Positions 35,941 to 50,143 of a DNA stretch of 64,000 nt are shown here, in pieces (positions within the stretch are counted from its first letter, which is position 1; each line of letters opens with the position of its first letter). A program made the position numbers and the translations under genes. The notes beneath the pieces are model-generated. The model did not search any database, was not told where the DNA came from, and saw only the letters and a program-made list of their open reading frames with translations. Source of the DNA: Pandoraea faecigallinarum (lineage in GTDB: Bacteria > Pseudomonadota > Gammaproteobacteria > Burkholderiales > Burkholderiaceae); NCBI RefSeq assembly GCF_001029105.3, contig NZ_CP011807.3:1922001-1986000 (forward strand). The letters are read 5' to 3'.

Positions 35941-36075
35941 GCAGGTTCGCTTTCGTAAAAGGTCCCGAATTTTCGAATTCGTCACCTAAACGTGCGTTTG
36001 GCGCGCGTCGCTGTGTGCCGAACGTCGCCTTACGCTGCGCGACTGGCACTTCAAACGATTGACACAGGAGTCAAG

Positions 36076-36402
36076 ATGCTCAAAGGAAACATCGCGGGTC
36101 TGATGAAACAGGCCCAGCAAATGCAGGAAAACATGAAGAAGGCGCAGGAACAGTTGGCTCAGATCGAAGTCGAGGGTCAGTCGGGCGCCGGACTCGTGAA
36201 AGTGGTGATGACCTGCAAGAACGACGTGCGTCGCGTGACCATCGAGCCGAGCCTGCTGGCCGACGACAAGGACATGCTCGAAGACCTCGTGGCGGCTGCA
36301 TTCAACGACGCCGTGCGCAAGGCCGAAGCCACCGCGCAGGAAAAGATGGGCGGTCTGACCGCCGGTCTGCCGCTGCCGCCGGGTTTCAAGATGCCGTTCT
36401 GA
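36076..36402 (+). CDS. ybaB: YbaB/EbfC nucleoid-associated protein
   Basis: 108 residues from the ATG with AGGAG ahead. Starts [20 protein letters not shown] with a helical N-terminus and the conserved [23 protein letters not shown] split over two strands. Binds DNA as a dimer; the exact role is unsettled. Sits between dnaX and recR as usual. Confidence 0.94.
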
Positions 36403-36436
36403 CCATTATCCGCCAGCTTCGATAGAAAGACGACGC

Positions 36437-37039
36437 ATGCCCCAGCCCCGGCTCTCGAGCTTGCAGGAACTCGTCGACGCCCTGCGCGCATTGCCGGGCG
36501 TCGGGCCGAAATCCGCGCAACGCATCGCTTACCATCTGCTGCAACGCGACCGTAAGGGCGCGGTGCGGCTGGGCGAGGCGCTGGTGCATGCCTCCGAGCA
36601 GATTCGCCATTGCGCGCGCTGCAATACGTTTACCGAAGTGGAAGTTTGCGAGACGTGCCTCGACCCCGAGCGCGACACAAGCCTGCTGTGCGTGGTGGAA
36701 ACGCCCGCCGACCAGAACATGCTTGAGCAGACGATGACCTTCAAAGGCCTTTACTTCGTGCTCATGGGACATCTCTCCCCGCTTGACGGCGTGGGACCCG
36801 GCGAAATCCATTTCGAGCAATTGATCCGCCGCGCCACCGACGGTGTGGTCAAGGAAGTGGTGCTTGCCACCAACTTCACGAACGAAGGCGAGGCCACCGC
36901 CCATTACATTGGACAGACGCTCAAGGCGCGCGGTTTGCGCGTTAGCCGGCTCGCGCGCGGCGTGCCGGTCGGGGGTGAGCTCGAGTACGTGGATGCGGGC
37001 ACCATCGCCCGGGCCGTACTCGACAGGCATACGCTCTGA
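36437..37039 (+). CDS. recR: Recombination protein RecR
   Basis: 200-residue RecFOR-pathway protein. Helix-hairpin-helix [17 protein letters not shown] at the N-terminus, a four-cysteine zinc finger ([16 protein letters not shown]), a Toprim domain ([15 protein letters not shown]) and the C-terminal [14 protein letters not shown]alker-B-like block. Typical in every respect. Confidence 0.96.
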
Positions 37040-37289
37040 GCATGACGCGGGCGTGATGCCGCGCGCCGTTGCGCGTAGGTACTCGTACTCTCATCCAATC
37101 GGATTAGCTGTTATTCGCTATATCTGCGCATATTCCCGTCTTCTAGACTGAACCTGCCGACTTGGGGACCCAACTACAGGGGGAACACCATAACTCCCGA
37201 GCGGCGTGGGGCCGTATAGCTGTCGCGCAGAAGCCGGTCGAAGACCAAGAAATCTGCGTGCAGGCACTGCTTAGGCAGGGAGTTAAGGT

Positions 37290-38648
37290 ATGGCTAACGA
37301 TACCGGGCGCACCCTGATTTACGCTTCCCGAAAGCACAACGACGGTTTGCTGTCGTTCCTGGGAGAGCAAGGCTGGCAAGTGGTGCCGGCCAAGAGCGCC
37401 AGCGACGTGGGTCGCATTCTCAATCCGGGGATCACCAGCGCAGCACTCATCGACCTGGCGAGCGGTTACAGCGACCGCGAGATGGGGGCGTTCGAGTCCT
37501 GCATGCAGCCAGCAACGGTAGGCTGGGTCGCTGCGACAAATCCTGAACAACTCACGACGACGTCGATCCGCCGGCTGATTCGCGACTATTGCTTCGACTA
37601 CATCAATGTTCCCTGCACGAACGATCAGCTCGCACACGCGATCGGGCACGCATGGGGCATGGCATCGCTCTCGGAAGTGCCGGTCATCACGCCCCAGGTC
37701 GGCGGCGATCAGGAAATGGTCGGCACGTGCGAAGCGATGCAGCAACTCTTTCGCACCATTCGCAAAGTTGCCAATACCGATGCGCCGGTGTTCATCTCGG
37801 GCGAGTCGGGCACCGGCAAGGAACTGAGCGCGGTGGCGATCCACGAGCGATCCCTGCGCGCGAAGGGTCCGTTCGTTGCCATCAATTGCGGTGCGATTCC
37901 ACCACATCTGATGCAGTCCGAACTATTCGGCTACGAACGTGGCGCATTCACGGGGGCGAACGCCCGCAAGATCGGTCGCGTCGAGTCGGCTAACGGCGGC
38001 ACGCTGTTCCTCGACGAAATCGGCGATCTCCCCATCGAAAGTCAGGCGAGTCTGCTGCGCTTTCTCCAGCAAGGCGCGATCGAGCGGTTGGGCGGTCACG
38101 AAGTGATTCCGGTCAACGTGCGCATCATTTCCGCGACGCACGGCGATCTCGAAGCCGCCGTGAAGGAAGGCCGTTTCCGCATGGATCTGTTCCATCGCCT
38201 GTGTGTGCTGCGCGTGGACGAACCGCCGCTGCGCGCCCGGGGACAGGACATCGAGATTCTCGCGCACCACGTGCTGCAACGCTTCAAGGGCGACAACCAT
38301 CGCAAGATCCGCGGTTTCACGCAGTGCGCGGTTCAGGCGATGTACGAATACCACTGGCCGGGCAATGTGCGGGAGCTGATCAACCGCGTACGCCGCGCCA
38401 TCGTCATGGCCGACAGCCGCATGATTTCGGCCAAGGATCTCGACCTTCTGCCGTGGGTGCCGACACTGGTTCGCACGCTGGAGGAAATTCGCGCGGAGGC
38501 CGAACGAACGGCCATCGAGCAGGCGTTGCTGCGCCACTGTCACCGTCTCACGGACGTGGCCGCAGAGTTGGGTATTTCGCGCATCACGCTGTACCGCCTC
38601 ATGTGCCGGTACGGATTGCGCGGTGACGAATCGGGCGTGCCGGCCTGA
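37290..38648 (+). CDS. Sigma-54-dependent transcriptional activator, VpsR/BerB-like
   Basis: 452-residue enhancer-binding protein. The N-terminal ~130 residues resemble the atypical receiver of VpsR-type regulators (D55 in [10 protein letters not shown] could be the phosphoacceptor). The central AAA+ domain has Walker A GESGTGKE near 171, GAFTGA near 217 (sigma-54 contact) and FLDEIGDLP. The C-terminus is a Fis-type helix-turn-helix ([19 protein letters not shown]). VpsR and Burkholderia BerB respond to cyclic-di-GMP and control matrix genes; that is inferred here. It lies upstream of a sigma-54 promoter and amyloid-like genes, its likely target. Confidence 0.88.
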
Positions 38649-38669
38649 TATCTTCTGGCGAAGAGAGGG

Positions 38670-38707
38670 CGACCGTCCTGTGATGAGCAGGGCGGTCGTT
38701 TCTTTTT
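38670..38707 (+). terminator. Terminator after the sigma-54 activator gene
   Basis: CGACCGTCCTG, a 7-base loop and CAGGGCGGTCG (one G-T pair), followed by TTTCTTTTT. Confidence 0.88.
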
Positions 38708-39376
38708 GGGGTCCTGAAGATCGGGGCACCGCTGCGTAGCCGGTATCCTCATGGCAAGCATTTCTCCTGTGCGCCTTGTGCATCCGTGCTTCCCCACAGG
38801 CTTGCGATTTTGTACGCATTTGCCCGCATCTTCGTATTTCGCGATTCCTGCCATCGCCAATAACGACGGGCGATTCCGGCCGCTTCTGCGTCCACGCCGA
38901 GGTGCGCGTTTCATACGCATTGCGTTATCTCGACTTTCTAAGCATCTGGCAATCGCACGCGCCGTTGCACCGGCCGCGGTACGAGCGGCTGCGCATTGCG
39001 CTGCGCAGGCAAATGCACGTCCGCACACATGTGAGGGTTGTCCCGCGGATACATCAAAGATGAAACATCCGGGCGGCGCAACGCCGGCGAGGCTCGGGCG
39101 ACGGTCCATGACACTCGCATGTCGTTTTCGTCCCGCACGGCCGATCTGCCGCATTTCTGTCACGCGAAACCCTTGTAAACCGGGCGTATCCGGCAGGCGT
39201 CTCCGGTCACGTCGATATCGTTCGCAGTTCGGAACGTTTTCGAAATGCGTCGTTGAAATGACGGGAGCGGCAGATCGGACTCCACGTATCAATGCTGAAA
39301 CATTTTCGCCCGCCCGAGTCGGCACACCTGTGCGTCGAAAAAATTAACGCCAATGTTTTCAGACACTTAAGTGCGG

Positions 39377-39392
39377 TGGCACGGAAGTCGCT
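39377..39392 (+). promoter_or_regulatory. Sigma-54 (-24/-12) promoter of the amyloid-like operon
   Basis: TGGCACG GAAG TCGCT: a perfect -24 element and 4/5 of the -12 element, with GG at 39378-39379 and GC at 39390-39391 exactly ten bases apart. The start would be near 39403, with AAGGAGG and the first ATG right after. The neighbouring activator gene encodes the matching class of regulator. Confidence 0.82.
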
Positions 39393-39421
39393 TTATTGGT
39401 CCGGGCAAGGAGGGCAAAGCG

Positions 39422-39949
39422 ATGCGAATTCTCACCACCGATATGCAGTACCGCGCACGACAAGGCGCAGGCGCCGTGAGCGCAGCCATCGTCGTAGCGC
39501 TCGCGCTGTGTGCCGCACCGGCACAGGCGCATGACTTCTCGCGCTCGCCGTTCATGCAGGTGGCGATGCTCACGGGCTCGATGGTGCCCGCATCGTTCAC
39601 GACGCCGATGTTGCCGGCCGCGCCGATTTCCGATGCCGACGTTGCCGTCGACGTGGCACCTGCCACCGGATCGGTCTCCACGGTGGCCGACGGCAGCGAT
39701 AGCCAGACGGTCCGCGCCTCCGGAATGCCGCTGGCTGCAGCCCGTATCGACGACGAACAACTGGGAAGCCAGCGCGGCCGCAATTTGCAGGGCGCCGCAA
39801 TGGTCAAGTCGCCTGGCATGGCGCTCGCCAACGGCGTGACGTTGTGGGATGAACTGCCCGGTGGCATCACACCGACACCGCGTCCGCAACAACTGTCGAA
39901 TGGCGTGGGCAACGTGCAGGTGACGCGCGTGACCTACACCACGCGGTGA
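39422..39949 (+). CDS. Exported protein of the amyloid-like locus (unknown, possible FapA position)
   Basis: 175 residues, with a very strong ribosome site (AAGGAGG). Signal peptide ending AQA/HD at residue 36. I do not recognise a family. Two features stand out: DDEQLGSQRGRNLQ at 110-123, resembling a double-glycine-type cleavage motif, and NGVTLWDELP at 137-146. Both are matched in the protein encoded at 45842-46282 on the other strand. The C-terminus LSNGVGNVQVT resembles the Fap repeat core. First gene of the operon, where Fap loci carry the chaperone gene fapA; homology to FapA is not shown. Confidence 0.7.
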   Translation: MRILTTDMQYRARQGAGAVSAAIVVALALCAAPAQAHDFSRSPFMQVAMLTGSMVPASFTTPMLPAAPISDADVAVDVAPATGSVSTVADGSDSQTVRASGMPLAAARIDDEQLGSQRGRNLQGAAMVKSPGMALANGVTLWDELPGGITPTPRPQQLSNGVGNVQVTRVTYTTR

Positions 39950-40461
39950 ACGACATGACCCCAATCACTTTCACGCCGGCTGCGCTCGTCACGATGTTCG
40001 CGGCACTGGCGCCAGCGATGCTCCCCGGCCCCGCAAAGGCCGAACCGGCCGCGCCGGGCGATCTGGTGATCGAGCGCAACATCGGCCCGCAGATTGCCTA
40101 TCGCGGCTTGCCGCGTGAACAAAACCCCATCGGCATCGCCGTCCCGGCCTTTCCGACGGGACCGTTCAATACGGCGATGGGGGCTGTCAGCCAGGTCACG
40201 GATAACGAACTGACGGGACGGGCCAACACCGGTCTGGTCACGAGTTCCGTGCAGTCGGGGATCAATCCCGTCATGGGTGTGCTAGTCGGCAATGCCCGCG
40301 GCGGCAACGGCCTGAACACCACCAACGGTGTCGGCGGCGGCTTCGGTGCCGGCTCCGGCGGCGGTGGCGGCATCGGCAGCATCGGCACGCTGGTGCCGTC
40401 GGTGATTGGCTCGGCGCTCGCGCCGCTCACGAGCATCGGCGCCGCGGGAGCCGCGAAATGA
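39946..40461 (+). CDS. Exported glycine-rich protein of the amyloid-like locus, unknown
   Basis: 171 residues from a GTG that overlaps the previous stop (GTGA); an ATG nine bases later is an alternative. A signal-like hydrophobic stretch (AALVTMFAALAPAMLPGPAKA) precedes an Ala/Pro/Asn-rich mature part. It contains VSQVTDNELTGRANTG at 81-96, similar in layout to the D-E-x-L motifs of its neighbours, and a Gly-rich stretch (GGGFGAGSGGGGGIG) near 130-144. The stop overlaps the next start. No known family recognised. Confidence 0.65.
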   Translation: MNDMTPITFTPAALVTMFAALAPAMLPGPAKAEPAAPGDLVIERNIGPQIAYRGLPREQNPIGIAVPAFPTGPFNTAMGAVSQVTDNELTGRANTGLVTSSVQSGINPVMGVLVGNARGGNGLNTTNGVGGGFGAGSGGGGGIGSIGTLVPSVIGSALAPLTSIGAAGAAK

Positions 40462-41099
40462 GCGCACATCGTCAGGTAAGGCGCGCCATCGCGCTGGCGG
40501 CAATGACAGCGCTGAGCGCGATTGCCGGAGTCTCGCAGGCACAAGACGTATGGCTTGTGAACGGTGAACTCGCCGGTACGCACGCCACGCTCGAGAGCGG
40601 CGTGGCGGTGGGTGTGTCCGGCGCGCTGGGCGTGAATCAGGCTGCCGGCATCAATAACGCTCAGGCCAACAGCGCGGTCATCGCCAACGGCGGCGGCGCG
40701 ACGCTCGGCATGACCAGCACGAATCAACAGGCGCTCGTCACTACGACGACGGGCGCCGCGAGCGCCGCGATTCAGGGCAACGCATTTTCGGGCACCTCGG
40801 GGCTGACGCAAGTCAACCAGGCGAGCGGTGCCGGCAATCTTCAACGCAACGCCACTGTCATTGTGGCCGGCGATGCGTCTGGAGTGGCGAGCGTATCGGA
40901 TACGGCACTATCCGCTGCGATCTCCAAGGGTGGCCCGGCTGGCCACAACAACGTCAACGACCAGTTCCGCACGGCATCGATTTCGAACGATGCCTTCCGC
41001 GGGGCGAGCGGGGTGTTGCAGGTGAACCAGTCGGCTGGGATAGGCAATGTAACCGCAAATGTTTTTGTGCTCCGTCCCCCGGCGGGCACATCTTTTTAA
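40458..41099 (+). CDS. FapB-like minor amyloid repeat protein
   Basis: 213 residues, coupled to the gene before by an ATGA overlap. Signal peptide ending SQAQ. The mature part carries three imperfect repeats at ~55-77, ~113-136 and ~182-206: LGVNQAAGINNAQANS, TQVNQASGAGNLQRNA and LQVNQSAGIGNVTANV. These follow the V-N-Q-x-x-G-x-x-N-x-x-x-N pattern of Fap-type functional amyloids. Shorter than the next gene and placed before it, it fits FapB, the proposed nucleator. Function inferred from repeat type and order. Confidence 0.72.
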   Translation: MSAHRQVRRAIALAAMTALSAIAGVSQAQDVWLVNGELAGTHATLESGVAVGVSGALGVNQAAGINNAQANSAVIANGGGATLGMTSTNQQALVTTTTGAASAAIQGNAFSGTSGLTQVNQASGAGNLQRNATVIVAGDASGVASVSDTALSAAISKGGPAGHNNVNDQFRTASISNDAFRGASGVLQVNQSAGIGNVTANVFVLRPPAGTSF

Positions 41100-41129
41100 C
41101 TGGGTAACTCTCTCGTCAAGGAGATGGTC

Positions 41130-42509
41130 ATGAAAACGAAAGCAATTGCAGCGGCTGCACTGCTGGTAGCAACGGGTACCGCCATGGCGTCGCCCAATCA
41201 CCAGCAATATAGCTTCTCGTTCATTGGCAACGAGACCAATGTCCTGAACCTGGTCGGCATTTTCGGTCTGATCGGCATTCAGGGCTGCGTCCGTGTGGAT
41301 AACACCGGCAACGCCGTCGTACAGAGCAACCAGAGTGTCGACGTCCATCACGTGAACCTCAAGGGACCGCTGCTTGGTTCCTATGTCACGGGCCATGTGA
41401 CGTACGGCGTGGATGCGAAGACGACGACGGTTTCGGATCAGGGCAGCGCGTATCTGATCGCCGGTAAGACGACCACGCACTACGACAACTCCACGTCGTG
41501 GGTGAACGCAACCGCCAACGGCCACCTCAACACGAGCCAGGCCTTCCAGGCAGGTGCGGGCTATGTGGCAGGGCAGTCGAGTTCCGGCTCGGGCGGCTTC
41601 ATCGCGGGCGGCGGGTATCAGTACTCGAACGTTGCAGCAGGTCTGGGTATTGTCGGTGGCGGCATCCTTCCGCTGCCGGGTGGCCTTGCGCTGTATGGTG
41701 GCTACCTCGTCGCGAACGCCGGCGCCGGTCAGGCTTCGGCATGGGGCGGCTATGCCTACGCGCAGCAGTCGCAGCAAGCGGCGGGCTTCCTCGCCGCGGG
41801 CTTCCTGAACACGCAGAAGAGCTTCGATGCGGCATTCCATGCCACGCTCAACCACGGCAATTACTCTGTCGAGAGCGATTCGATTGCCGCCGGCGCGCTC
41901 TGGGGCTTCTCGAATACCTACACGAAGTCGACCGCCTGGACCAAGGGCGCTATCACGTATCACTTCAACACGGCGCAATACCAGACGATGGGCGCGACGC
42001 TTGGCGACAACGCCTTGTCCAACGCTAACGGCAACGTCGGCGTGAACGTGGCGGCAGGTGCCGACAACGCCCAGGCCAACAATGTCGCGATTGCTTCGCT
42101 CAACGCGCAGCCGGTGTATGCCTCGGCTCAGGTGTTCGCGAACCAGTCGTCGAAGGGTTCGGCCAGCATCTCGCAGTTCATGGTCAATGCCAGCGTGGGT
42201 GACCATGCGCTTGCCGGTGCGACTGGCAACGTGGGTGTGAACGTGGCCTCGGGTGTCGGCAACGTGCAGGGCAACAGCCTGGCCGCGGCGGTCTCGCAAG
42301 GTGCGAGCGGCTGGTACAAGGGCGGTGCTGCCAACTCGACGGCACAAACCGACCAGATGGCCGGCATGAAGGCCTCGGGTGACTTCGTTGCCAACGCATC
42401 GCTCGGCAACGGCGCACTGCAATGGGCCAGCGGCAACGTCGGTGTGAACGTGGCAGCCGGTATCGGCAACGTTCAGGCCAACAGCCTTGCCATCTCGGCA
42501 ATCAAGTGA
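41130..42509 (+). CDS. FapC-like major amyloid repeat protein
   Basis: 459 residues; the second ATG is chosen since AAGGAG lies six bases ahead. Signal peptide KTKAIAAAALLVATGTAMA. Residues ~25-285 form a Gly/Ala/Tyr/Ser-rich region with an aromatic-rich part (YAYAQQSQQAAGFLAAGF). The C-terminal third has three near-identical repeats at ~291-323, ~356-388 and ~424-456: GNVGVNVAAGADNAQANN, GNVGVNVASGVGNVQGNS and GNVGVNVAAGIGNVQANS, separated by linkers. This repeat-linker layout is that of FapC, the main subunit of Pseudomonas Fap fibres. A terminator-like hairpin follows directly. Confidence 0.78.
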   Translation: MKTKAIAAAALLVATGTAMASPNHQQYSFSFIGNETNVLNLVGIFGLIGIQGCVRVDNTGNAVVQSNQSVDVHHVNLKGPLLGSYVTGHVTYGVDAKTTTVSDQGSAYLIAGKTTTHYDNSTSWVNATANGHLNTSQAFQAGAGYVAGQSSSGSGGFIAGGGYQYSNVAAGLGIVGGGILPLPGGLALYGGYLVANAGAGQASAWGGYAYAQQSQQAAGFLAAGFLNTQKSFDAAFHATLNHGNYSVESDSIAAGALWGFSNTYTKSTAWTKGAITYHFNTAQYQTMGATLGDNALSNANGNVGVNVAAGADNAQANNVAIASLNAQPVYASAQVFANQSSKGSASISQFMVNASVGDHALAGATGNVGVNVASGVGNVQGNSLAAAVSQGASGWYKGGAANSTAQTDQMAGMKASGDFVANASLGNGALQWASGNVGVNVAAGIGNVQANSLAISAIK

Positions 42510-42516
42510 TGTCGCT

Positions 42517-42550
42517 AACCGGTCCGGGAAATTCTCCGGACCGGTTTTTT
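42517..42550 (+). terminator. Intercistronic terminator after the major repeat-protein gene
   Basis: AACCGGTCCGG and its complement CCGGACCGGTT with an 8-base loop, followed by T6. Located between the FapC-like and peptidase genes, it may let most transcripts end after the fibre gene and only some continue. Confidence 0.85.
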
Positions 42551-42563
42551 CATGAGGTGTGTC

Positions 42564-43274
42564 ATGAATGATGCGCGTCGTGCCGCAGTGAGGATCGCTA
42601 CTGTTTGCGCTCTGGCGTGCGCAAGCGTGGCCGGGCACGCGCAGTATGCATCGGTGAACCTGGAGTCTTCGATCGGGGTACCGGCGGTCAAGAAGATGCG
42701 CTCGTTCAAGTCGATGCACTACGTGAATCTGGTCCAGCAGGAATACGACTTCAGTTGTGGGTCCGCAGCACTGTCGACGCTGCTGCGATATGGCTACGGG
42801 ATCAACATTCCCGAGACAGAAATGATTCAGCGAATGATGGCGTTCTCCAATCCGGAAACGGTCATCAAGAACGGCTTCTCGATGCTCGACATGAAGAAAT
42901 TCGTGGAGACGCTCGGACTCGAGGGGCGAGGTTTCAAAGTGGACGTCGGCGCACTTTACGACTTGAAGATTCCGGTCATCGCGCTTATCGACGTCAACGG
43001 CTATCAGCACTTTGTGGTTATCAAGGCGGCGAAGGAGGGGCGGGTATTCGTGTCCGATCCGGCGCTGGGCAACCGCATCATCGAGCAGGCCGATTTTGCC
43101 AGGCAGTGGAACGGCCTGGTGCTGGCGGTCATCGGCAAGCCGTTCCTGGAGGATTCACCGCTGCTCAAAGGAAACGAATCCCTGGCGTCCAAGCTGCGCG
43201 ACAGCGCGCTGGCCACCGGGACGTCACCGACTCCGATGGTGGACTTCGGCATCATCCGGGCGGATCTGTTTTGA
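42564..43274 (+). CDS. Exported C39-family peptidase (FapD-like)
   Basis: 236 residues. Signal peptide (IATVCALACASVAGHA), then a C39 papain-like domain: Q59 and C65 in QEYDFSCGSAALSTLL, H149 in GYQHFVVI and D165 in VSDPALGNR, giving the full catalytic set. C39 peptidases cut double-glycine leaders; FapD is the C39 member required for fibre export in Pseudomonas. No ABC transporter domain is attached. GAGGTG precedes the chosen ATG. Substrate inferred: neighbours carry L-x4-G-R/K motifs. Confidence 0.85.
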   Translation: MNDARRAAVRIATVCALACASVAGHAQYASVNLESSIGVPAVKKMRSFKSMHYVNLVQQEYDFSCGSAALSTLLRYGYGINIPETEMIQRMMAFSNPETVIKNGFSMLDMKKFVETLGLEGRGFKVDVGALYDLKIPVIALIDVNGYQHFVVIKAAKEGRVFVSDPALGNRIIEQADFARQWNGLVLAVIGKPFLEDSPLLKGNESLASKLRDSALATGTSPTPMVDFGIIRADLF

Positions 43275-43286
43275 GATCAGACCATC

Positions 43287-44036
43287 ATGAATCGATATGT
43301 CCCGATGCTGGCCATACCGCTGTTCGCAAGTGCCGTGCCGGCATTTGCGTCGAGCGTGGTGCCCGAGAGCTGGACGCCCGTGAGCGATGAAGTGCTCTCG
43401 CACGCGACCGGCAAGTACGCACAACAGAACATGATTTCGGGCTTCCAGCTCGTTATGCAGTCGCAATGGCAAATGCCGACCGGCGCCAGTCTGATGGCCA
43501 CGGGTGTGCTCGGGGTGAACAACGGACAGGTACAGACCGGGAGTTCGACGGCCATCATTCCCGGCGTCGTCAATGCGGTCGCGCCGACGACGCAGGTCGT
43601 GAGCGGCGCCGCGAACGTGTTGATGAACGGCGTCGCGCAGATCACGCAGGTCGCCGGCGACGCAAACAACGCCCTGAACAAAGCCATCATCCAGTACGGC
43701 CAGAACGGATCGGTTGCGATGCTCGTGCCGCTAAGCAACCAGAGTTCCAGCAACTCGTCGACGACGGTGGGCAATCTGAGCGCGAGCGTGGCGATTTCGT
43801 CTGCCGGCATGCAACTCGCACTCAACACGCCCAACGGCAACCTCGCGCAGAGCATCGCCGGCGGCGCCGGTGGCTCGATGAACCAGATCATGCAGGTGGT
43901 TCAGGTCGCGGGCAATGCACAACAGGTAATGAATACCTTGCAGTTGAACCTGCAAACGAGCGCGCTCACGTCGGCCGGGCTGCGCCAGGTTGGTATCCAG
44001 AACGCAATGGCGAACATGGTCGCCGTGCGGCATTGA
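43287..44036 (+). CDS. FapE-like exported protein of the amyloid locus
   Basis: 249 residues, 12 bases after the peptidase stop. Signal peptide MLAIPLFASAVPAFA. Near the mature N-terminus PVSDEVLSHATGKY (31-44) resembles a double-glycine-type site. Two weak repeat units, AQITQVAGDANNALN and MQVVQVAGNAQQVMN, echo the Gln/Asn/Gly pattern of the fibre proteins. The position between the peptidase and barrel genes is that of fapE. The family assignment rests on order and composition only. Confidence 0.68.
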   Translation: MNRYVPMLAIPLFASAVPAFASSVVPESWTPVSDEVLSHATGKYAQQNMISGFQLVMQSQWQMPTGASLMATGVLGVNNGQVQTGSSTAIIPGVVNAVAPTTQVVSGAANVLMNGVAQITQVAGDANNALNKAIIQYGQNGSVAMLVPLSNQSSSNSSTTVGNLSASVAISSAGMQLALNTPNGNLAQSIAGGAGGSMNQIMQVVQVAGNAQQVMNTLQLNLQTSALTSAGLRQVGIQNAMANMVAVRH

Positions 44037-44065
44037 AAGGTAACGTCCGATACGGCCGTGGGCCG

Positions 44066-44081
44066 GGGCATCGACATTGCC
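44066..44081 (+). promoter_or_regulatory. Candidate second sigma-54 promoter, before the FapF-like gene
   Basis: GGGCATC GACA TTGCC: GG at 44067-44068 and GC at 44079-44080 are ten bases apart, the right spacing, and TTGC is perfect, but the -24 element lacks the leading T and final ACG. It lies in a 240-base gap before the barrel gene. Confidence 0.4.
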
Positions 44082-44275
44082 CGGCAGGACGCCATGACAA
44101 CAAGAAATGGGGCGCCGCCGCAGAACCCTTGCGGCGTACAAGAAGGTGATGTCGGCAGAGCCCGGTCAGGGTTTCGCACGCATCACCCCGCAGTCGAGCA
44201 GCAAGGACAACCGTTGTCGGAAATACGTGTTGATTGCGCGCGGACGCCCGTCCGCTTTTTCACCCGGGGGGGATC

Positions 44276-45607
44276 ATGAACACTCACCGCTTTTTTCCCG
44301 TTGCCGCTATTCCGTTGGGGGTACTGCTTTTCACGCTATCGGCCCAGGCTCAGGAGCATACGAACCCATCGCCGGACAACCGTATCCAGATGTTGATGGA
44401 TATGGTGGACCGGCAGCAGCGGGAAATTTCTTCTCTCAAGCAGCGCCTCACGGATATCGAGATGGCGCAGCGCGGGCGCGGCCTGACCGCATGGGATACC
44501 GCGCAAATCGCGCAAGTCACGCCCGGTGACGGCTCCGGCGCCAGTTCCACAGGCACGCCTGGCGGCGGCGCCGCCGGGGTCGCAGGCCCAACGACGGCCA
44601 CGCCGATCGGCGAGACGCAGCAAATGCAAAAGAGCGAGACCGACTCGCAGCGCACGCCGGCCGAAGAGGCCGTGGTGCAGGCGCAGCACGCGCCGCTGTT
44701 CGACCGCAAGCTCACCATCGATGCCGGTATCAGCTACAGCTATTACGACCGTCGTCAGTTGGTACTGAGCGGCTTTCTCGCACTCGACGCCATCTTCCTC
44801 GGTCAACTGAACCTCGGCCAGACAAAGGCCAACGTGTGGACCTTCGACGTGAACACGCGCTACGGGATCACCGATCGGCTGAGTGTGGCGTTCGACGTGC
44901 CGTACCTCTACCGCAATTCGGATTTCATTTCGGGCGGGGTGGGCGGCGCAGCCTCCTCGATCAGCGACATCAGCAAGAACTCGGCGAATATCGGCGACGT
45001 CAACGCGTCCCTGTACTACCAGGTCGTGAAGGAAAATGCGAACTGGCCGGATATCGTGGCGTCGTTGCGTGTCACGGCCCCGACGGGGACGTCGCCGTTC
45101 GGCATCAAGCTCGGCACGCCTGATCCGAGTAACAACAACCTGACGACGCCGTCACGTTTGCCCACGGGTAACGGCATCTGGGCAATCACGGCGGGCTTGT
45201 CGTTCCTTCGGACCTACGATCCGATCGTGCTGTTCGCGAACGTGGCCTATACGTACAACGTGGCCCGCTCGTTCGACGACATCTCGACTATCGAAGGCAC
45301 GACGCAGCCCGCCAAGGTCAAGCTCGGCGATATCGTGCAGGTCGGTGCCGGGATGGCGCTCGCGCTCAACGACAAGACGGCGCTGTCGATCTCATATTCG
45401 ACGGCCATTTCGCGTGCCACGAAGACGGCGTCCCCGGGGGCGAGCTGGACAACGGTGGCAGGGAGCACGACCAATGCGGCGTCGCTTAACTTCGGTATCA
45501 ATTACGCCATCAACAAGCACTGGACGGTGAACGGCTACGTGAATGCGGGGATGTCGCCGGATGCACCGAATTACGTAATTGGGGTTCGCTTCCCGTACAC
45601 GTTCTAA
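44276..45607 (+). CDS. FapF-like outer-membrane beta-barrel transporter with N-terminal coiled coil
   Basis: 443 residues. Signal peptide ending AQAQ near residue 23. Residues ~30-62 form a coiled coil (IQMLMDMVDRQQREISSLKQ then RLTDIE). A Gly/Ala/Pro/Thr-rich linker follows, and from ~145 amphipathic beta-strands run to the C-terminus, which ends in phenylalanine (FPYTF), as in outer-membrane barrels. FapF has the same plan: a coiled-coil-gated barrel secreting the fibre subunits. It is the last gene on this strand. Confidence 0.8.
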   Translation: MNTHRFFPVAAIPLGVLLFTLSAQAQEHTNPSPDNRIQMLMDMVDRQQREISSLKQRLTDIEMAQRGRGLTAWDTAQIAQVTPGDGSGASSTGTPGGGAAGVAGPTTATPIGETQQMQKSETDSQRTPAEEAVVQAQHAPLFDRKLTIDAGISYSYYDRRQLVLSGFLALDAIFLGQLNLGQTKANVWTFDVNTRYGITDRLSVAFDVPYLYRNSDFISGGVGGAASSISDISKNSANIGDVNASLYYQVVKENANWPDIVASLRVTAPTGTSPFGIKLGTPDPSNNNLTTPSRLPTGNGIWAITAGLSFLRTYDPIVLFANVAYTYNVARSFDDISTIEGTTQPAKVKLGDIVQVGAGMALALNDKTALSISYSTAISRATKTASPGASWTTVAGSTTNAASLNFGINYAINKHWTVNGYVNAGMSPDAPNYVIGVRFPYTF

Positions 45608-45684
45608 AGGGCGGGGTGGCGCAGCCGGGCCGTTGTCTCTCGAGCGTGAAGGATCGAACGGGACAGGGCGCAGGGGAATGCGGG

Positions 45685-45710
45685 GCGCGTCGCCGTCATG
45701 GGCGACGCGC
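45685..45710. other. GC-rich hairpin between convergent genes
   Basis: GCGCGTCGCC and its complement GGCGACGCGC around a 6-base loop, in the 234-base gap after the FapF-like gene. No T run follows, so it is not a standard intrinsic terminator. Confidence 0.5.
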
Positions 45711-45841
45711 GAGCGCGCGATAGCAAGGCGCACGGCGTGAATGCGCGGCGCTTGCCGTCAAAACGCTTGATGTGGGACGCAGATGTCGAGCCCGGTCGTG
45801 CTCGGTCGTGCCTGGAAGCGGTCAGTGGCGCTTCATGGCGT

Positions 45842-46282
45842 TTAGCGCGCGGCTGCCGGCATGCGCGTGACGGTAGCGCTGACGTTGACCTTGATGCTGG
45901 CCGTCGCGAGGGTGGATGCCGTTGGCGGCAACTGGGAAACGGCAACCGCCGTGCGTGGCTGCGTCGGTGCGGGTGCGGCGGCCTGGGTGGGTTTGGGCGA
46001 TGGGGCGGGTGGAATGACTTCGTCCCACAAGCGCACGGTGTTGGCAACGCTCGTGGTGGCATGGACCGGTACGACGGCACCCGGTGCGGTACTGCCGAGG
46101 CTGGTCACGATGCTGCGCTGCAAATTGGCCGCATGGGCGCTGGCGAGCAGCGTATCGCTCACGGTCGCCGCAACGGCACCGCCGCCGATGCCGCCGACAT
46201 CGGCCTGCGCGCAACTCGCGTAGCATGCAGCGGCAAGACAGAACATCGCGCTGCGCGTCGTGCTGACGGTGATCTTGAACAT
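45842..46282 (-). CDS. Exported protein related to the first gene of the amyloid-like locus
   Basis: 146 residues on the opposite strand to the operon. Signal peptide to about residue 27 (AMFCLAAACYASCAQA). VSDTLLASAHAANLQ at 41-55 aligns with IDDEQLGSQRGRNLQ in the protein at 39422-39949, and NTVRLWDEVIPP at 81-92 with NGVTLWDELPGG, both followed by Pro-rich segments. So this is a divergent relative. Its motif lacks the G-R pair of the other copy. G6 precedes the ATG as a possible ribosome site. Function unknown. Confidence 0.7.
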   Translation of the reverse strand: MFKITVSTTRSAMFCLAAACYASCAQADVGGIGGGAVAATVSDTLLASAHAANLQRSIVTSLGSTAPGAVVPVHATTSVANTVRLWDEVIPPAPSPKPTQAAAPAPTQPRTAVAVSQLPPTASTLATASIKVNVSATVTRMPAAAR

Positions 46283-46681
46283 GGCGTGCCCCCCGGCCTT
46301 CGCGGACTGTCCTCTCAGACTCCTTGTATTTTATTGCGCGATTCGAGAAAGGAAAGGGGAAAAAAGTAATAGCGGACTCTCTGAACTTGAGGAAATAATT
46401 TACGCAGATTGCGGTTTGTCGCGCTCAGGCAACAGGGGTAGCCCTCCGTGAGTTGCGGACTCGCCACCACGCGGTTTTCGCGCATAAACTGCCTTGAAAG
46501 CAAGGTGACGCTTTATGTGTGAAGCATGACGAACGCTGGAGGACTTCTTCGGTTTTCGCCCCGGGGGGGCATGGGTCGCGCAAGCGGCGGGCCGGCAAAA
46601 ACATCGATCCCTAAGGCGCAACGAGCATGACAAAAAATGGGGCGGCGGCACGGAGTGCCGACCGGAACGACAGGGGAAATC
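46283..46681. other. Divergent intergenic region before the LuxR-type regulator
   Basis: 399 bases, AT-richer between 46320 and 46420. Features: inverted repeat CGGCAC-GGA-GTGCCG at ~46647-46661, about 20 bases before the regulator start, a possible operator; and ATGACAAAAAATGGGGCGG at 46627, similar to a sequence at 44094. No certain promoter. Confidence 0.45.
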
Positions 46682-47407
46682 ATGCGTGTGCTGGTCGTAG
46701 GTGAGGCTGCCACCTGGCTGGGCGGCCTGCAAGTCGCGTTGCAAACCGAAACGAACGTGACGCCACCGGTCTTGCGGCATGTCGATAGCGTGGCGACGCC
46801 GGACTGGGTGTGGCTGCGCGAGCTGCCCTCGCGCCGTGCGCTCGTGCTCGACGAGTCCGTCGCGCGTACGCCTGCTGTACACACGTTGTGCGCGATAGCC
46901 GCCGAATGTGTGCCGCCCGTGCCTGTCATCGTGGTGGGCGATGCGGGTTTTCCCGATGAGATCATTCGCTGGTTGCAGGCTGGCGTGGCCGCGTGTCTAC
47001 CGTGGCCGAATTCGGTCGCCCGCATTCGTTCGGTGTTCGACCTGGCGTTCTCGGGCGGACGCTTCGTGCCCGAAGAGGCGCTCTCGGCGCTGCTGGTGCT
47101 CTGGCGTCAGGAGGCGCTTGGCGAGGCGTTACCCCTGTCGCGCCTGCCCGTCTTCCCATTGGGTGGCGACAAGGCGACGCAACTCGCCGAATCGGCGCTG
47201 CTCGGTATTTCTCAACGGCAGTACGAAATTCTTGCGCTGCTCTCGCGAGGCCTGTCCATCAAGACGATCTGTCAGCAACTGGTAATTTCCGAAGGCACGG
47301 CCAAGACGCACGTGTCGGCGCTGTATCGCCGGCTGGGGGCGCGTAACCGCGGGGAGGCCATCTATATTGCGGCGCAGCGCGGCGCACGTCACCTGTTCGA
47401 GACCTGA
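46682..47407 (+). CDS. LuxR-family response-regulator-like transcription factor
   Basis: 241 residues from the ATG with AGGGGAA ahead. The N-terminal ~130 residues look like a receiver (MRVLVVGEA, then LVLDES with D57 and VIVVGDAG), but the usual acidic pair near residue 8 is reduced to one glutamate and the conserved lysine is replaced (ACLPWPNS), so phosphorylation is doubtful. The C-terminal helix-turn-helix is clear: ISQRQYEILALLSRGLSIKT, then ISEGTAKTHVSALYRRLGA. It lies beside the amyloid-like locus, which it may regulate. Confidence 0.85.
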   Translation: MRVLVVGEAATWLGGLQVALQTETNVTPPVLRHVDSVATPDWVWLRELPSRRALVLDESVARTPAVHTLCAIAAECVPPVPVIVVGDAGFPDEIIRWLQAGVAACLPWPNSVARIRSVFDLAFSGGRFVPEEALSALLVLWRQEALGEALPLSRLPVFPLGGDKATQLAESALLGISQRQYEILALLSRGLSIKTICQQLVISEGTAKTHVSALYRRLGARNRGEAIYIAAQRGARHLFET

Positions 47408-47673
47408 GCCGAGCTTGACTGGCCCGGCGGCGTTCGCCATGGGGCGGTCTGGCCGCCGGGCCGCCTGTGCGGTTGGCTGCCGCGATGCCGCATCGGACAG
47501 GAGGATGAGCCTTCTCGGAAGTTTCCGGGATTTCCCCTGAGGTTATTGGCCGATAGCGGCTGTCGAATTACTATACGGACTTCATTTGCCACCCATTTGC
47601 CTGGACGTCGCCCGCAGGCGGTGTCTCGAGAGTCGACGGTGATGACCGTCGACGAGGCTCAGGAGTCCAAGCG

Positions 47674-48999
47674 TTGTCCAAGTCGTCTACGCCGTTCGCA
47701 TCGTCATCGCCGCAAGGATCTGCTGCGGCGTCGGCGGCATCTGCCGCGCAGTCTCCCTCCCCATCTTCCCAACGTTGCGCTCAGGCGCCGGCCGGTGCGC
47801 CCGGTTTCGGTGCACTTGCCGGGGTGAAGGTGCTCGAACTCGGCACGCTGATCGCCGGCCCGTTTGCCGCGCGCATGCTGGGTGAGTTCGGTGCCGAGGT
47901 CATCAAGATCGAGGATCCGCAGCACGGCGACCCGCTGCGCAAGTGGCGCAAGTTGCATCCGGACGCGGGCGGCACGTCGCTGTGGTGGGCGGTGCAGGCG
48001 CGTAACAAGAAGTCGGTCACGATCAACCTGAAGTCTCCGCAAGGGCAGGAGATCGTGCGCAAGCTCGCGGCGCAGGCCGACATCGTCGTCGAGAATTTCC
48101 GCCCCGGATTGCTGGAGCGCTTCGGGCTGGGCTACGAACAACTCTCGGCTGCGAACCCCGGTCTGGTGATGGTGCGGCTGTCGGGCTACGGCCAGACGGG
48201 GCCGTACCGGGACCGTCCCGGTTTCGGCGCCATTGCCGAATCGATGGGCGGACTGCGTCATATCACCGGCTACCCGGACTTGCCGCCGCCACGGATCGGC
48301 ATTTCCATCGGCGACTCCATCGCCGCGCTGCATGGTGTGATCGGCGCGATGATGGCGCTGCACCACCGCAACGCGAATGGCGGGCGAGGGCAGGTGGTCG
48401 ACGTGGCGCTCTACGAGGCAGTCTTCAACCTGATGGAGAGTGTCGTGCCGGAGTACAGCGTGGCGGGCATGGTGCGTGAGCGAACCGGCGCGTCGCTGCC
48501 GGGCATCGTGCCGTCGAATACCTATCCGTGCGCAGACGGCATGATCGTCGTCGGGGGGAATAGCGATCCGATCTTCAAGCGCCTGATGCACGCGATCGGC
48601 CGTGCCGATCTGGCCGAAGACCTGGGGCTCGCCCATAACGATGGACGGGTACCCCGCACGCAGGAGATCGACGAGGCGATCGGTCAATGGACGCAGGCGC
48701 GCTCCATCGACGATGCCCTCTGCGTGCTGCAAGCGGCGGATGTTCCGGCGAGCCGCATCTACACGGTGGCCGACATGTTCAAGGATCCGCAGTTCATCGC
48801 GCGTCAGATGATCCAGCGTCATACGTTCCCGGACGGCACGCCGATCGACCTGCCCAACATCTCGCCAAAACTGTCGGACACGCCCGGGCAGACACAGTGG
48901 CTCGGGCCCGAACTGGGCGCTCACACGGACGAGGTGCTGGGGCAACTGGGTTATGATGCCGGGCAAATCAAGGCGTTGCGCGATAACGGTGTCATCTGA
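47674..48999 (+). CDS. Type III CoA-transferase (CaiB/BaiF family)
   Basis: 441 residues from a TTG start with AGGAG eight bases ahead. The first ~45 residues are Ser/Ala-rich; the family domain begins GVKVLELGTLIAGPFAARML and continues with KIEDPQHGDPLRKWR and FRPGLLERFGLGY. D214 in ISIGDSIAALHG is the likely catalytic aspartate that forms the acyl-anhydride. It transfers CoA between organic acids; the substrate is unknown. It is followed by an ABC importer, hinting that the imported acid is activated here. Confidence 0.88.
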   Translation: MSKSSTPFASSSPQGSAAASAASAAQSPSPSSQRCAQAPAGAPGFGALAGVKVLELGTLIAGPFAARMLGEFGAEVIKIEDPQHGDPLRKWRKLHPDAGGTSLWWAVQARNKKSVTINLKSPQGQEIVRKLAAQADIVVENFRPGLLERFGLGYEQLSAANPGLVMVRLSGYGQTGPYRDRPGFGAIAESMGGLRHITGYPDLPPPRIGISIGDSIAALHGVIGAMMALHHRNANGGRGQVVDVALYEAVFNLMESVVPEYSVAGMVRERTGASLPGIVPSNTYPCADGMIVVGGNSDPIFKRLMHAIGRADLAEDLGLAHNDGRVPRTQEIDEAIGQWTQARSIDDALCVLQAADVPASRIYTVADMFKDPQFIARQMIQRHTFPDGTPIDLPNISPKLSDTPGQTQWLGPELGAHTDEVLGQLGYDAGQIKALRDNGVI

Positions 49000-49111
49000 G
49001 AAGACATCGCCGCCCAAGGCACTGCGGCGTGCGGGAGGGAATCGCGCGCCGTCAATAAAGCACGTCGAACAAACAAAGAAAGAACGCTGCAATCACGGAG
49101 ACAACAACACC

Positions 49112-50143
49112 ATGCAAAGACGTCAGTTCGTCACGGCCCTGGCTGCCACCGGCCTTATCGGTGCGGGCATTCGCCCCGGTTTCGCACAAGGCAGGCTCGA
49201 GAAGACCAGGATCGCCATCGCGGTCGGCGGAAAGAACCTCTTTTACTACTTGCCGCTCACGATTGCCGAACGTCTGAACTACTTCAAGGACGAAGGGCTC
49301 GACGTCGAAATCTCAGACTTCGCCGGGGGTTCCAAGGCATTGCAGGCTCTTGTCGGCGGCAGTGCCGATGTGGTCTCGGGGGCCTACGAGCATACGATTC
49401 TGTTGCAGGCGAAAAACCAGTACATTCGCGCCTTCGTATTGCAGGGGCGCGCCCCGCAGATCGTCTTCGGCGTGTCGAACAAGACGATGCCCAACTACAA
49501 GTCGATTGCCGACCTGCGTGGCAAGAAGATCGGTGTGACGGCACCGGGTTCGTCGACGAACATCATGGCGAACTTCGTGCTTGCCAAGGGGGGCATCAAG
49601 CCCAACGAAGTGGCCTTCGTCGGTGTGGGCGCGTCGTCGGGCGCACTGGCTGCGATACGGTCGGGCAATGTCGACGCCATCGTCAACCTCGACCCGGTGA
49701 TCACCATGCTCGAGCGCGACAAGGAGATTCGCGTGATTTCGGATACGCGCACGCTCAAGGAAACGGTGTCGGTGTTCGGCGGTAACATGCCGGCCGGTTG
49801 TCTCTATACGAACGAATCGTTCATTCAGAAAAATCCGAACACGACGCAAGCACTGACCAATGCGATGGTGCGCGCGTTGCGCTGGCTTCAGACGGCCGGG
49901 CCGGGCGACCTCATCAAGACGGTGCCCGATGCCTATCTGCTGGGCGACCGGGCGCTCTACCTCGATGCATGGAGCCGCGTGAAGGAGGCGATCTCGCCGG
50001 ACGGTCTGATCCCCGCCGACGGGCCGGCCACCGCGCTGCGCACCTTGCAGGCTTTCGATGAGACGGTCAAGGGCAAGTCGATCGATCTGTCCAAGACGTT
50101 CACGAACGAGTTCACGAAAAAGGCCGACGCCAAGTACAAATGA
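49112..50143 (+). CDS. NitT/TauT-type ABC transporter substrate-binding protein
   Basis: 343 residues. The N-terminus MQRRQFVTALAATGLIG has a twin-arginine-like motif, so export may be by Tat or Sec. The mature part is of the SsuA/NMT1 class: FYYLPLTIAERLNYFKDEGL, GGSKALQALVGGSADVV, LRGKKIGVTAPGSSTN and GNVDAIVNLDPVI. Such proteins bind sulfonates, nitrate or small aromatic or pyrimidine compounds; the ligand cannot be read. It overlaps the ATPase gene. Confidence 0.88.
   Translation: MQRRQFVTALAATGLIGAGIRPGFAQGRLEKTRIAIAVGGKNLFYYLPLTIAERLNYFKDEGLDVEISDFAGGSKALQALVGGSADVVSGAYEHTILLQAKNQYIRAFVLQGRAPQIVFGVSNKTMPNYKSIADLRGKKIGVTAPGSSTNIMANFVLAKGGIKPNEVAFVGVGASSGALAAIRSGNVDAIVNLDPVITMLERDKEIRVISDTRTLKETVSVFGGNMPAGCLYTNESFIQKNPNTTQALTNAMVRALRWLQTAGPGDLIKTVPDAYLLGDRALYLDAWSRVKEAISPDGLIPADGPATALRTLQAFDETVKGKSIDLSKTFTNEFTKKADAKYK

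Follow-up and report, generated by a model that had tools for sequence, protein, structure and literature searches.

The fap locus and its identity

A stretch of 64,000 nucleotides from the genome of Pandoraea faecigallinarum (contig NZ_CP011807.3, positions 1,922,001 to 1,986,000 of the forward strand; hereafter the window) contains, at 39946-45607, a complete operon of the Fap (functional amyloid) type, which is headed by an additional gene, here called gene1 (provisionally 'FapX'), whose product carries a motif of the C39 leader type that recurs in FapE. Eight named genes lie between 39422 and 46282, and all of them are open where a first-pass annotation, made from the sequence without database searches, had placed them. 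With the adjoining regulatory features they are arranged as follows (window positions; E-values for Pfam domains or NCBIfam NF models):

37290..38648, + strand: VpsR-type sigma54 enhancer-binding regulator, likely activator (Pfam Sigma54_activat, 1.1e-68; VpsR domain, 1.2e-21)
39377..39392, + strand: sigma54-type -24/-12 promoter element TGGCACGGAAGTCGCT, 45 nucleotides (nt) 5' of the gene1 start
39422..39949, + strand: gene1, exported precursor with C39-type motif and VTLWDE block
39946..40461, + strand: FapA-like, putative chaperone (NF058617, E 5.2e-5, under the curated cut-off)
40458..41099, + strand: FapB-like minor fibre subunit, three repeats (NF058557, E 8.3e-23)
41124..42509, + strand: FapC-like major fibre subunit with three C-terminal repeats (NF058558, E 4.1e-18)
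42552..43274, + strand: FapD, periplasmic C39 peptidase (NF058616, E 1.3e-57)
43287..44036, + strand: FapE, C39-type motif right behind the signal peptide (NF058559, E 2.8e-15)
44276..45607, + strand: FapF, outer-membrane secretion barrel with N-terminal region (NF058560, E 9.4e-112)
45842..46282, - strand: gene1 paralog (by hhalign to the gene1 family)
46637..47407, + strand: LuxR-type regulator adjoining the locus, putative member of the system (GerE, 9.2e-13)

The fap genes follow the order A-B-C-D-E-F, as given by the NCBIfam models and, for fapA, by a weak match together with position. Family models, solved-structure matches and synteny agree on this identity, which confirms the Fap assignment and the B-C-D-E-F order of the first-pass annotation; the profile searches it had proposed as a check gave the matches listed above for B, C, D, E and F, whose E-values exclude chance as the source of the likeness. 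Two findings had been named there as ones that would speak against a Fap locus, namely a peptidase and barrel unlike FapD and FapF, or repeat proteins of an unrelated adhesin family; both proteins match the FapD and FapF models, and FapC matches the solved FapC. Of the two leading genes, which had been regarded as non-standard, this holds for gene1, while the second is a diverged fapA (NF058617, E 5.2e-5), with its start codon at GTG 39946 or ATG 39955. The gene1 stop overlaps or almost abuts the fapA start, and a FapA-like gene stands between gene1 and fapB in other genera too.

The repeats reported for two exported proteins are present as three cores each, at residues 303, 368 and 437 of FapC (GNVGVNVA.G..N.Q.N; detectable in the DNA too as repeat family D1, with spacing of 195 and 207 nt) and, in looser form, at residues 58, 115 and 185 of FapB. 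The FapC profile matches solved FapC 9u4u over residues 287-461 (E 1.8e-20), and the same structure is the only Foldseek match under E 0.001 for the FapC AlphaFold2 (AF2) model, whose mean predicted local distance difference test (pLDDT) score is 50, with ten-residue blocks of 56 to 85 in the repeat part and values under 50 in residues 1-59 and 90-276. FapD, judged by eye to have a signal peptide for export, aligns to PCAT1 with the full catalytic set that had been noted for it (Cys69, His153, Asp169) and matches the PCAT1 peptidase 7n87 (E 1.7e-8), and FapF matches solved Pseudomonas FapF 5o65 over residues 143-443 (E 1.3e-78) and has two PTG motifs, at residues 269 and 296. The best explanation of these sequences is that FapB and FapC would be fibre subunits exported via the FapF barrel, and the strain would be expected to secrete an amyloid fibre, as the annotation had proposed.

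All six window proteins score under the curated cut-offs of the NCBIfam Fap models, and CxxC is found in none of window FapA, FapB, FapC and FapE. The curated FapF cut-off is reached by 0 of 299 Burkholderiaceae genomes and so excludes the whole sample; the curated Fap cut-offs appear to have been set for a narrower group.

A C39-type motif shared by FapE and gene1

The motif common to FapE and gene1 consists of a hydrophobic residue at -12, Leu at -7 and Gly at -2, and is found as VSDEVLSHATGK at residues 32-43 of FapE (43380-43415) and as IDDEQLGSQRGR in gene1 (39746-39781), where the VTLWDE block lies at 39836-39853. This spacing matches that in the leader consensus L(-12)xxxE(-8)L(-7)xxxxG(-2)G(-1), which the C39 domain of PCAT1 binds (PMC6959990), so that both window proteins have the double-glycine features at -12, -7 and -2, with neither Gly nor Ala at -1. 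Among 164 FapE relatives (44 plus the best 120 of 365 matches, the fragment P0067 being dropped and kinship uncorrected), the anchor pattern occurs within 110 residues in 163, as against 497 of 32800 shuffled N-termini; at -7, 162 of these have Leu and one has Met, and the single miss has Arg. Gly -2 is one of ten invariant columns in 26 aligned beta- and gammaproteobacterial FapE, and all 12 gammaproteobacterial fap loci fetched for comparison, some of which carry gene1, show the FapE motif (e.g. LTDPELSQMRGR). In gene1, the alignment of 18 beta- and gammaproteobacterial members has an invariant start Met, Leu -7, the V, L, W, D and E of V.LWDE and one Gln; Asp -10 and Gly -2 each reach at least 90%. 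A genuine double glycine occurs in the gene1 proteins of several other genera (e.g. LDDQTLSRQRGG).

The strict motif was also used to gauge specificity: within 150 residues it occurs in 32 of 305 open reading frames (ORFs) with a crude signal from 18 Pandoraea loci, all of them FapE (18) or gene1 (14) strings, and among window ORFs of at least 120 residues it occurs in 4 of 189, two of which are FapE and gene1. The AF2 model of FapE places a short helix at residues 34-40, covering motif positions -10 to -4, where the PCAT1 substrate is helical as well; a fold search with this model gave no match at E 0.001 or better, and the FapE profile matched no solved structure. With a profile trained on gammaproteobacterial FapE, window FapE ranks 1 of 303 ORFs and none of 6060 shuffled ORFs reaches it. 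A near-motif in FapF (LTDIEMAQRGRG), considered as a sign that FapF might be a FapD target, ranks 8 but is shifted by one residue.

The motif is also found beside more distant FapD/FapF-like pairs of Burkholderiaceae, where a protein with the canonical motif, e.g. VSEDQLDDMRGGF, adjoins the peptidase in 15 of 16 loci and a small motif protein precedes the peptidase in 6 of 16, including the exception L002. A profile trained on these distant loci gives P < 0.05 in 4 of 4 small distant-locus proteins and in 0 of 10 control proteins. No ORF matching window FapB or FapC was found in the 16 loci. These loci (L110-L123, L037 and L002) represent a second FapD/FapF-type cluster with one or two exported RGG-motif proteins, and L037 and L002 have, by eye, repeat-like exported proteins.

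Gene1 as an accessory of fap

In a survey of 299 Burkholderiaceae genomes (E <= 1e-90 for Fap-type FapF, E <= 1e-20 for gene1), Fap-type FapF was found in 90, gene1 in 82 and both in 79; at these thresholds gene1 lies within 9 kb of fapF in 79 of the 79 genomes having both, or 79 of the 90 that are Fap-positive. The Fisher value for this association is inflated by kinship. The three gene1 genomes without Fap-type FapF comprise a split assembly, a partial FapF on the same contig and an interrupted gene1, and another 43 genomes of the survey have weaker gene1 matches only. Gene1 homologues directly precede fapA in 15 of 20 fap loci from other Burkholderiaceae genera. Of 369 genomes sampled from the class, 11 gave a gene1 match, ten of them in fap or fap-like loci; a match in G463 (E 9e-4), inside an 841-residue frame far from the fap locus of that genome, was dropped as spurious. 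As gene1 is missing from part of the Fap-positive genomes it is not essential, and it is best described as a frequent, widespread, though not universal, accessory of fap. The suggestion that the locus is a distinct variant therefore stands for gene1 and its opposite-strand paralog, which lie outside the standard fap set, and falls in so far as gene1 is widespread: of 90 Fap-positive Burkholderiaceae genomes 79 have it beside fap, as do some gammaproteobacteria. None of the Pfam and NCBIfam families is matched by gene1 at its cut-off (18 family members scanned; the best hit was a low-complexity match, E 0.003), and no earlier account of the motif or of gene1 was found in the literature searched, which was not full text throughout and was without supplements and most subscription journals.

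The opposite-strand gene, which had been taken for a relative of gene1, is indeed one by profile-profile comparison with the gene1 family (hhalign probability 96.6, E 5.9e-10). It has VRLWDE at 46019-46036 and a degenerate motif without the Gly at 46127-46162, and was found in the 19 Pandoraea fap loci compared and in 0 of 15 other-genus loci with gene1 (among ORFs of at least 90 residues with LWDE). It ranks 126 of 303 ORFs with the gammaproteobacterial FapE profile, and 1 of 3 paralogs reaches P < 0.05 with the distant-locus profile. Since its motif in the window is without Gly, it is not claimed as a client of FapD.

It was shown that the motif is kept with FapD and lost where Fap-type FapD is absent. 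Gene1 proteins of fap or fap-like loci have the anchor pattern in 42 of 43 cases, the exception (L127) having Ala at -2. A FapD-less set of 25 genomes (24 of the 43 weak-match genomes plus G210), found through the VTLWDE part, keeps VTLWDE in 25 of 25, but a look-back of 45 or 50 residues from there finds the anchor pattern in 1 of 25. When these 25 genomes were checked for Fap-type FapD together with three positive controls, six had no match, two had a distant type (about 1e-34), and the remaining FapD-less genomes had matches only inside frames of at least 700 residues. The VTLWDE relative of the FapD-less genomes may have a fap-independent use. In this set (L146-L149, L154-L174), the gene1 relative adjoins the sigma54 activator in the longer stretches, L146-L149 and L154.

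A proposed role for FapD, and its alternatives

According to published work, FapD activity is needed for FapC secretion, which is abolished by mutation of the catalytic Cys, and N-terminal peptides of FapE were not seen by mass spectrometry (PMC5557850). The same source describes the Fap proteins as having no canonical C39 site, the target of FapD has been called unclear (PMC5557850; PMC6173800), and both accounts hold that FapE may be processed. For the complete Fap operon of the window it is considered likely that FapD reads and cuts a double-glycine-like leader in FapE and gene1. In such a mechanism, FapE and gene1 would first cross the inner membrane by Sec, after which periplasmic FapD would recognise the leader (hydrophobic -12, Leu -7, Gly -2) in both proteins and cut directly behind it; the cut would release mature FapE of about 206 residues and a 55-residue gene1 product containing the VTLWDE block, and would license secretion. 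The predicted gene1 product also has a short GVGNVQ stretch resembling the FapC repeat, and we would guess that it is fibre-associated. Cleavage, the cut position and the role of the gene1 product are predictions from sequence.

Several observations weigh against this proposal. All 163 FapE motifs have Arg or Lys in place of Gly at -1 (Lys in the window), window gene1 has Arg there, the residue at -8 is not Glu in the window, and the FapE helix is modelled at low confidence (pLDDT about 50). The FapE set is without Pseudomonas FapE, none of those named among the best 120 of 365 matches being from Pseudomonas. Profile scores are less favourable for gene1, which ranks 9 of 303 ORFs with the gammaproteobacterial FapE profile and is reached by 151 of 6060 shuffled ORFs; with the distant-locus profile, P < 0.05 is obtained in 0 of 9 gene1 and 5 of 10 FapE proteins, with P 0.125 for window FapE and P 0.095 for window gene1, in which the best site is displaced from the motif. 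Because single-sequence profile scoring is weak for gene1, the case for the motif rests on alignment and comparison. That comparison has its own exceptions: one FapD-less genome keeps the motif (L154, an interrupted gene and apparently a recent decay), a 60-residue look-back raises the count to 3 of 25 (both additions are hydrophobic stretches close to the N-terminus that lack the acidic -10), FapD was seen in 41 of the 43 positive loci but not in L150, which is cut off by a contig edge, or in L151, and the 25 FapD-less genomes belong to three genera and thus represent few independent losses. Gene1 is also missing in 11 of the 90 FapF-positive family genomes, these 11 being of three genera, and of 16 class-sample genomes positive for FapE, 6 have it beside FapE, no genome of that sample being over the FapE cut-off.

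Some of these points can be accommodated by a Fap locus in which the motif serves for binding or targeting, to FapD in a chaperone role or to the FapF coiled coil, without being a cleavage site. This would explain a FapE without Gly at -1, and some C39 domains do act as chaperones (PMC6173800), yet a purely non-catalytic role is difficult to reconcile with the loss of FapC secretion on mutation of the FapD catalytic Cys and with the missing FapE N-terminal peptides (PMC5557850), and a true GG is found at the same place in the more distant loci, so that this explanation is held to be unlikely. It is likewise improbable that gene1 encodes an independent small envelope protein that acts through its VTLWDE part, unrelated to FapD and merely co-transcribed with fap. 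Such independence would fit the persistence of VTLWDE in 25 genomes without Fap-type FapD, in 24 of which the motif is lost, and the existence of fap loci without gene1, but it would not predict that 42 of 43 gene1 proteins of fap loci keep the motif, or that gene1 is closely linked to fap in all 79 genomes having both at the thresholds used. That the repeat proteins are adhesins of an unrelated family and resemble Fap only superficially is scarcely credible: the six models scoring under their curated cut-offs and the missing CxxC could be taken in its favour, but the FapF cut-off is passed by none of the 299 family genomes, the operon is whole and ordered, and the matches to solved FapF and FapC rule this family out.

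With processing of FapE and gene1 by FapD as the preferred explanation, a wider one may be put forward, to which about an even chance is given: FapD-FapF pairs may constitute a general two-signal export pathway of Gram-negative bacteria, consisting of Sec followed by a double-glycine-type leader that would be cut by a periplasmic C39 peptidase before or during passage through a FapF-type barrel, with FapE as the prototype client and gene1 as the overlooked precursor of a small fibre-associated peptide. The occurrence of a motif of exact spacing in beta- and gammaproteobacterial FapE and in an unnamed gene of the operon reduces the question of the FapD substrate to a test of two residues.

Promoter and regulators

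An enhancer-binding protein gene and a predicted -24/-12 promoter both precede the operon. The element TGGCACGGAAGTCGC lies 45 nt ahead of gene1, which is thereby the promoter-proximal gene; as TGGCACGGAAGTCGCT it has 1 mismatch to TGGCACN5TTGCW. In 20 of 20 Pandoraea sequences, the window included, TGGCACGGAWGTCGC is found at the same place (44 nt in one), and of 20 other-genus loci 19, all but L102, have TGGCA[CT]-N7-CGC no more than 102 nt from the first gene (best site taken from 410 nt with GG and GC obligatory). By itself the sigma54 pattern shows no enrichment in the window (36 against 31.2 expected) and is not rarer than chance; the evidence for the promoter is its conservation. The VpsR-type activator gene is kept in the 19 Pandoraea fap loci compared, all of which are also adjoined by the LuxR-type gene. 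In P. fluorescens, the c-di-GMP (cyclic diguanylate)-sensing enhancer-binding protein BrfA directly controls fapA (PMC13101488). The window operon is probably switched on by the VpsR-type activator at the predicted sigma54 promoter, which gives the locus a predicted point of sigma54 control, and it may be under c-di-GMP control as well.

Between fapE and fapF, a gap of 239 nt (44037-44275) has a 3' half that is conserved in Pandoraea and ends in ACCCGGGGGGG directly before fapF; the conserved part is possibly a leader or a second promoter. Rfam gave no match in this gap. A riboswitch or structured RNA before fapF was discarded, a search of 36000-50000 giving one sub-threshold match on the other strand, inside fapD. 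Blocks of 20-25 nt common to the upstream regions of fapF and the LuxR-type gene (D9, D20) are not conserved before the latter across Pandoraea and were taken as chance.

Distribution and the FapC extension

FapF is present in 31 of 32 sampled Pandoraea species, the exception being a 1.2 Mb genome, and is 93 to 97% identical between the window and named Pandoraea relatives. Pandoraea is among the listed Fap-encoding genera (PMC6173800), so that the locus by itself is ordinary and not new, and fap has been recorded in Burkholderia (PMC3792158). Surveys count six fap genes, using models of known proteins (PMC3792158; PMC12392863), and would therefore overlook gene1. In public records, many FapE proteins of Pandoraea and Paraburkholderia (P0040-P0083) are named 'peptidase C39', which looks like an annotation transferred from the neighbouring gene. 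One gammaproteobacterial genome (G561, loci L153 and L126) has a second fap-like locus, and an identical 363-residue frame, a transposase by eye, adjoins a shortened fapD in both of its loci.

Window FapC has an N-terminal extension of about 260 residues before the first repeat (41124-41990), modelled mostly at low confidence. FapC frames in 15 other-genus loci with gene1 are of similar or greater length (459 to 527), short forms of 259 to 279 occur in L036 (Pandoraea), L090, L096, L097 and L102, and in L101 the FapC frame overlaps fapB and its start is ambiguous. An alignment of the 19 long forms was made; the extension is variable among genera and absent in some.

Comparison with known systems

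Several FapC length classes have been described and ascribed to linkers (PMC12392863), whereas the extra length of window FapC is N-terminal. The window shares with Pseudomonas fapABCDEF (PMC3792158; PMC5557850; PMC6173800) the gene order, FapB and FapC with three repeats, a C39 FapD, FapE, and a FapF barrel with two PTG motifs; it differs from this published gene set in gene1 5' of fapA and the opposite-strand paralog, in the long N-terminal extension of FapC, and in scores below the curated cut-offs. The C-terminal CxxC of Pseudomonas-type FapC (PMC5135000) is absent from window FapC.

BrfA of P. fluorescens (PMC13101488) and BerB of B. cenocepacia (PMC5552954) are c-di-GMP-responsive enhancer-binding proteins that control biofilm matrix genes, with fapA as the direct target of BrfA, while the window regulator is known from its domain content (the VpsR match) and position alone. 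Colocalised fapD and fapF homologues outside Fap have been noted before (PMC6173800), and the distant loci described here likewise pair a FapD-like with a FapF-like protein, with canonical RGG precursors among the 16 loci. When compared with the C39 leaders of PCAT and ABC transporters (PMC6959990), the window system has a related peptidase domain, the same -12/-7/-2 spacing and, in FapE, a predicted helix from -10 to -4, but its peptidase and substrates are predicted to be Sec-exported and periplasmic, -1 is Arg or Lys, and the motif is not N-terminal but preceded by a signal peptide.

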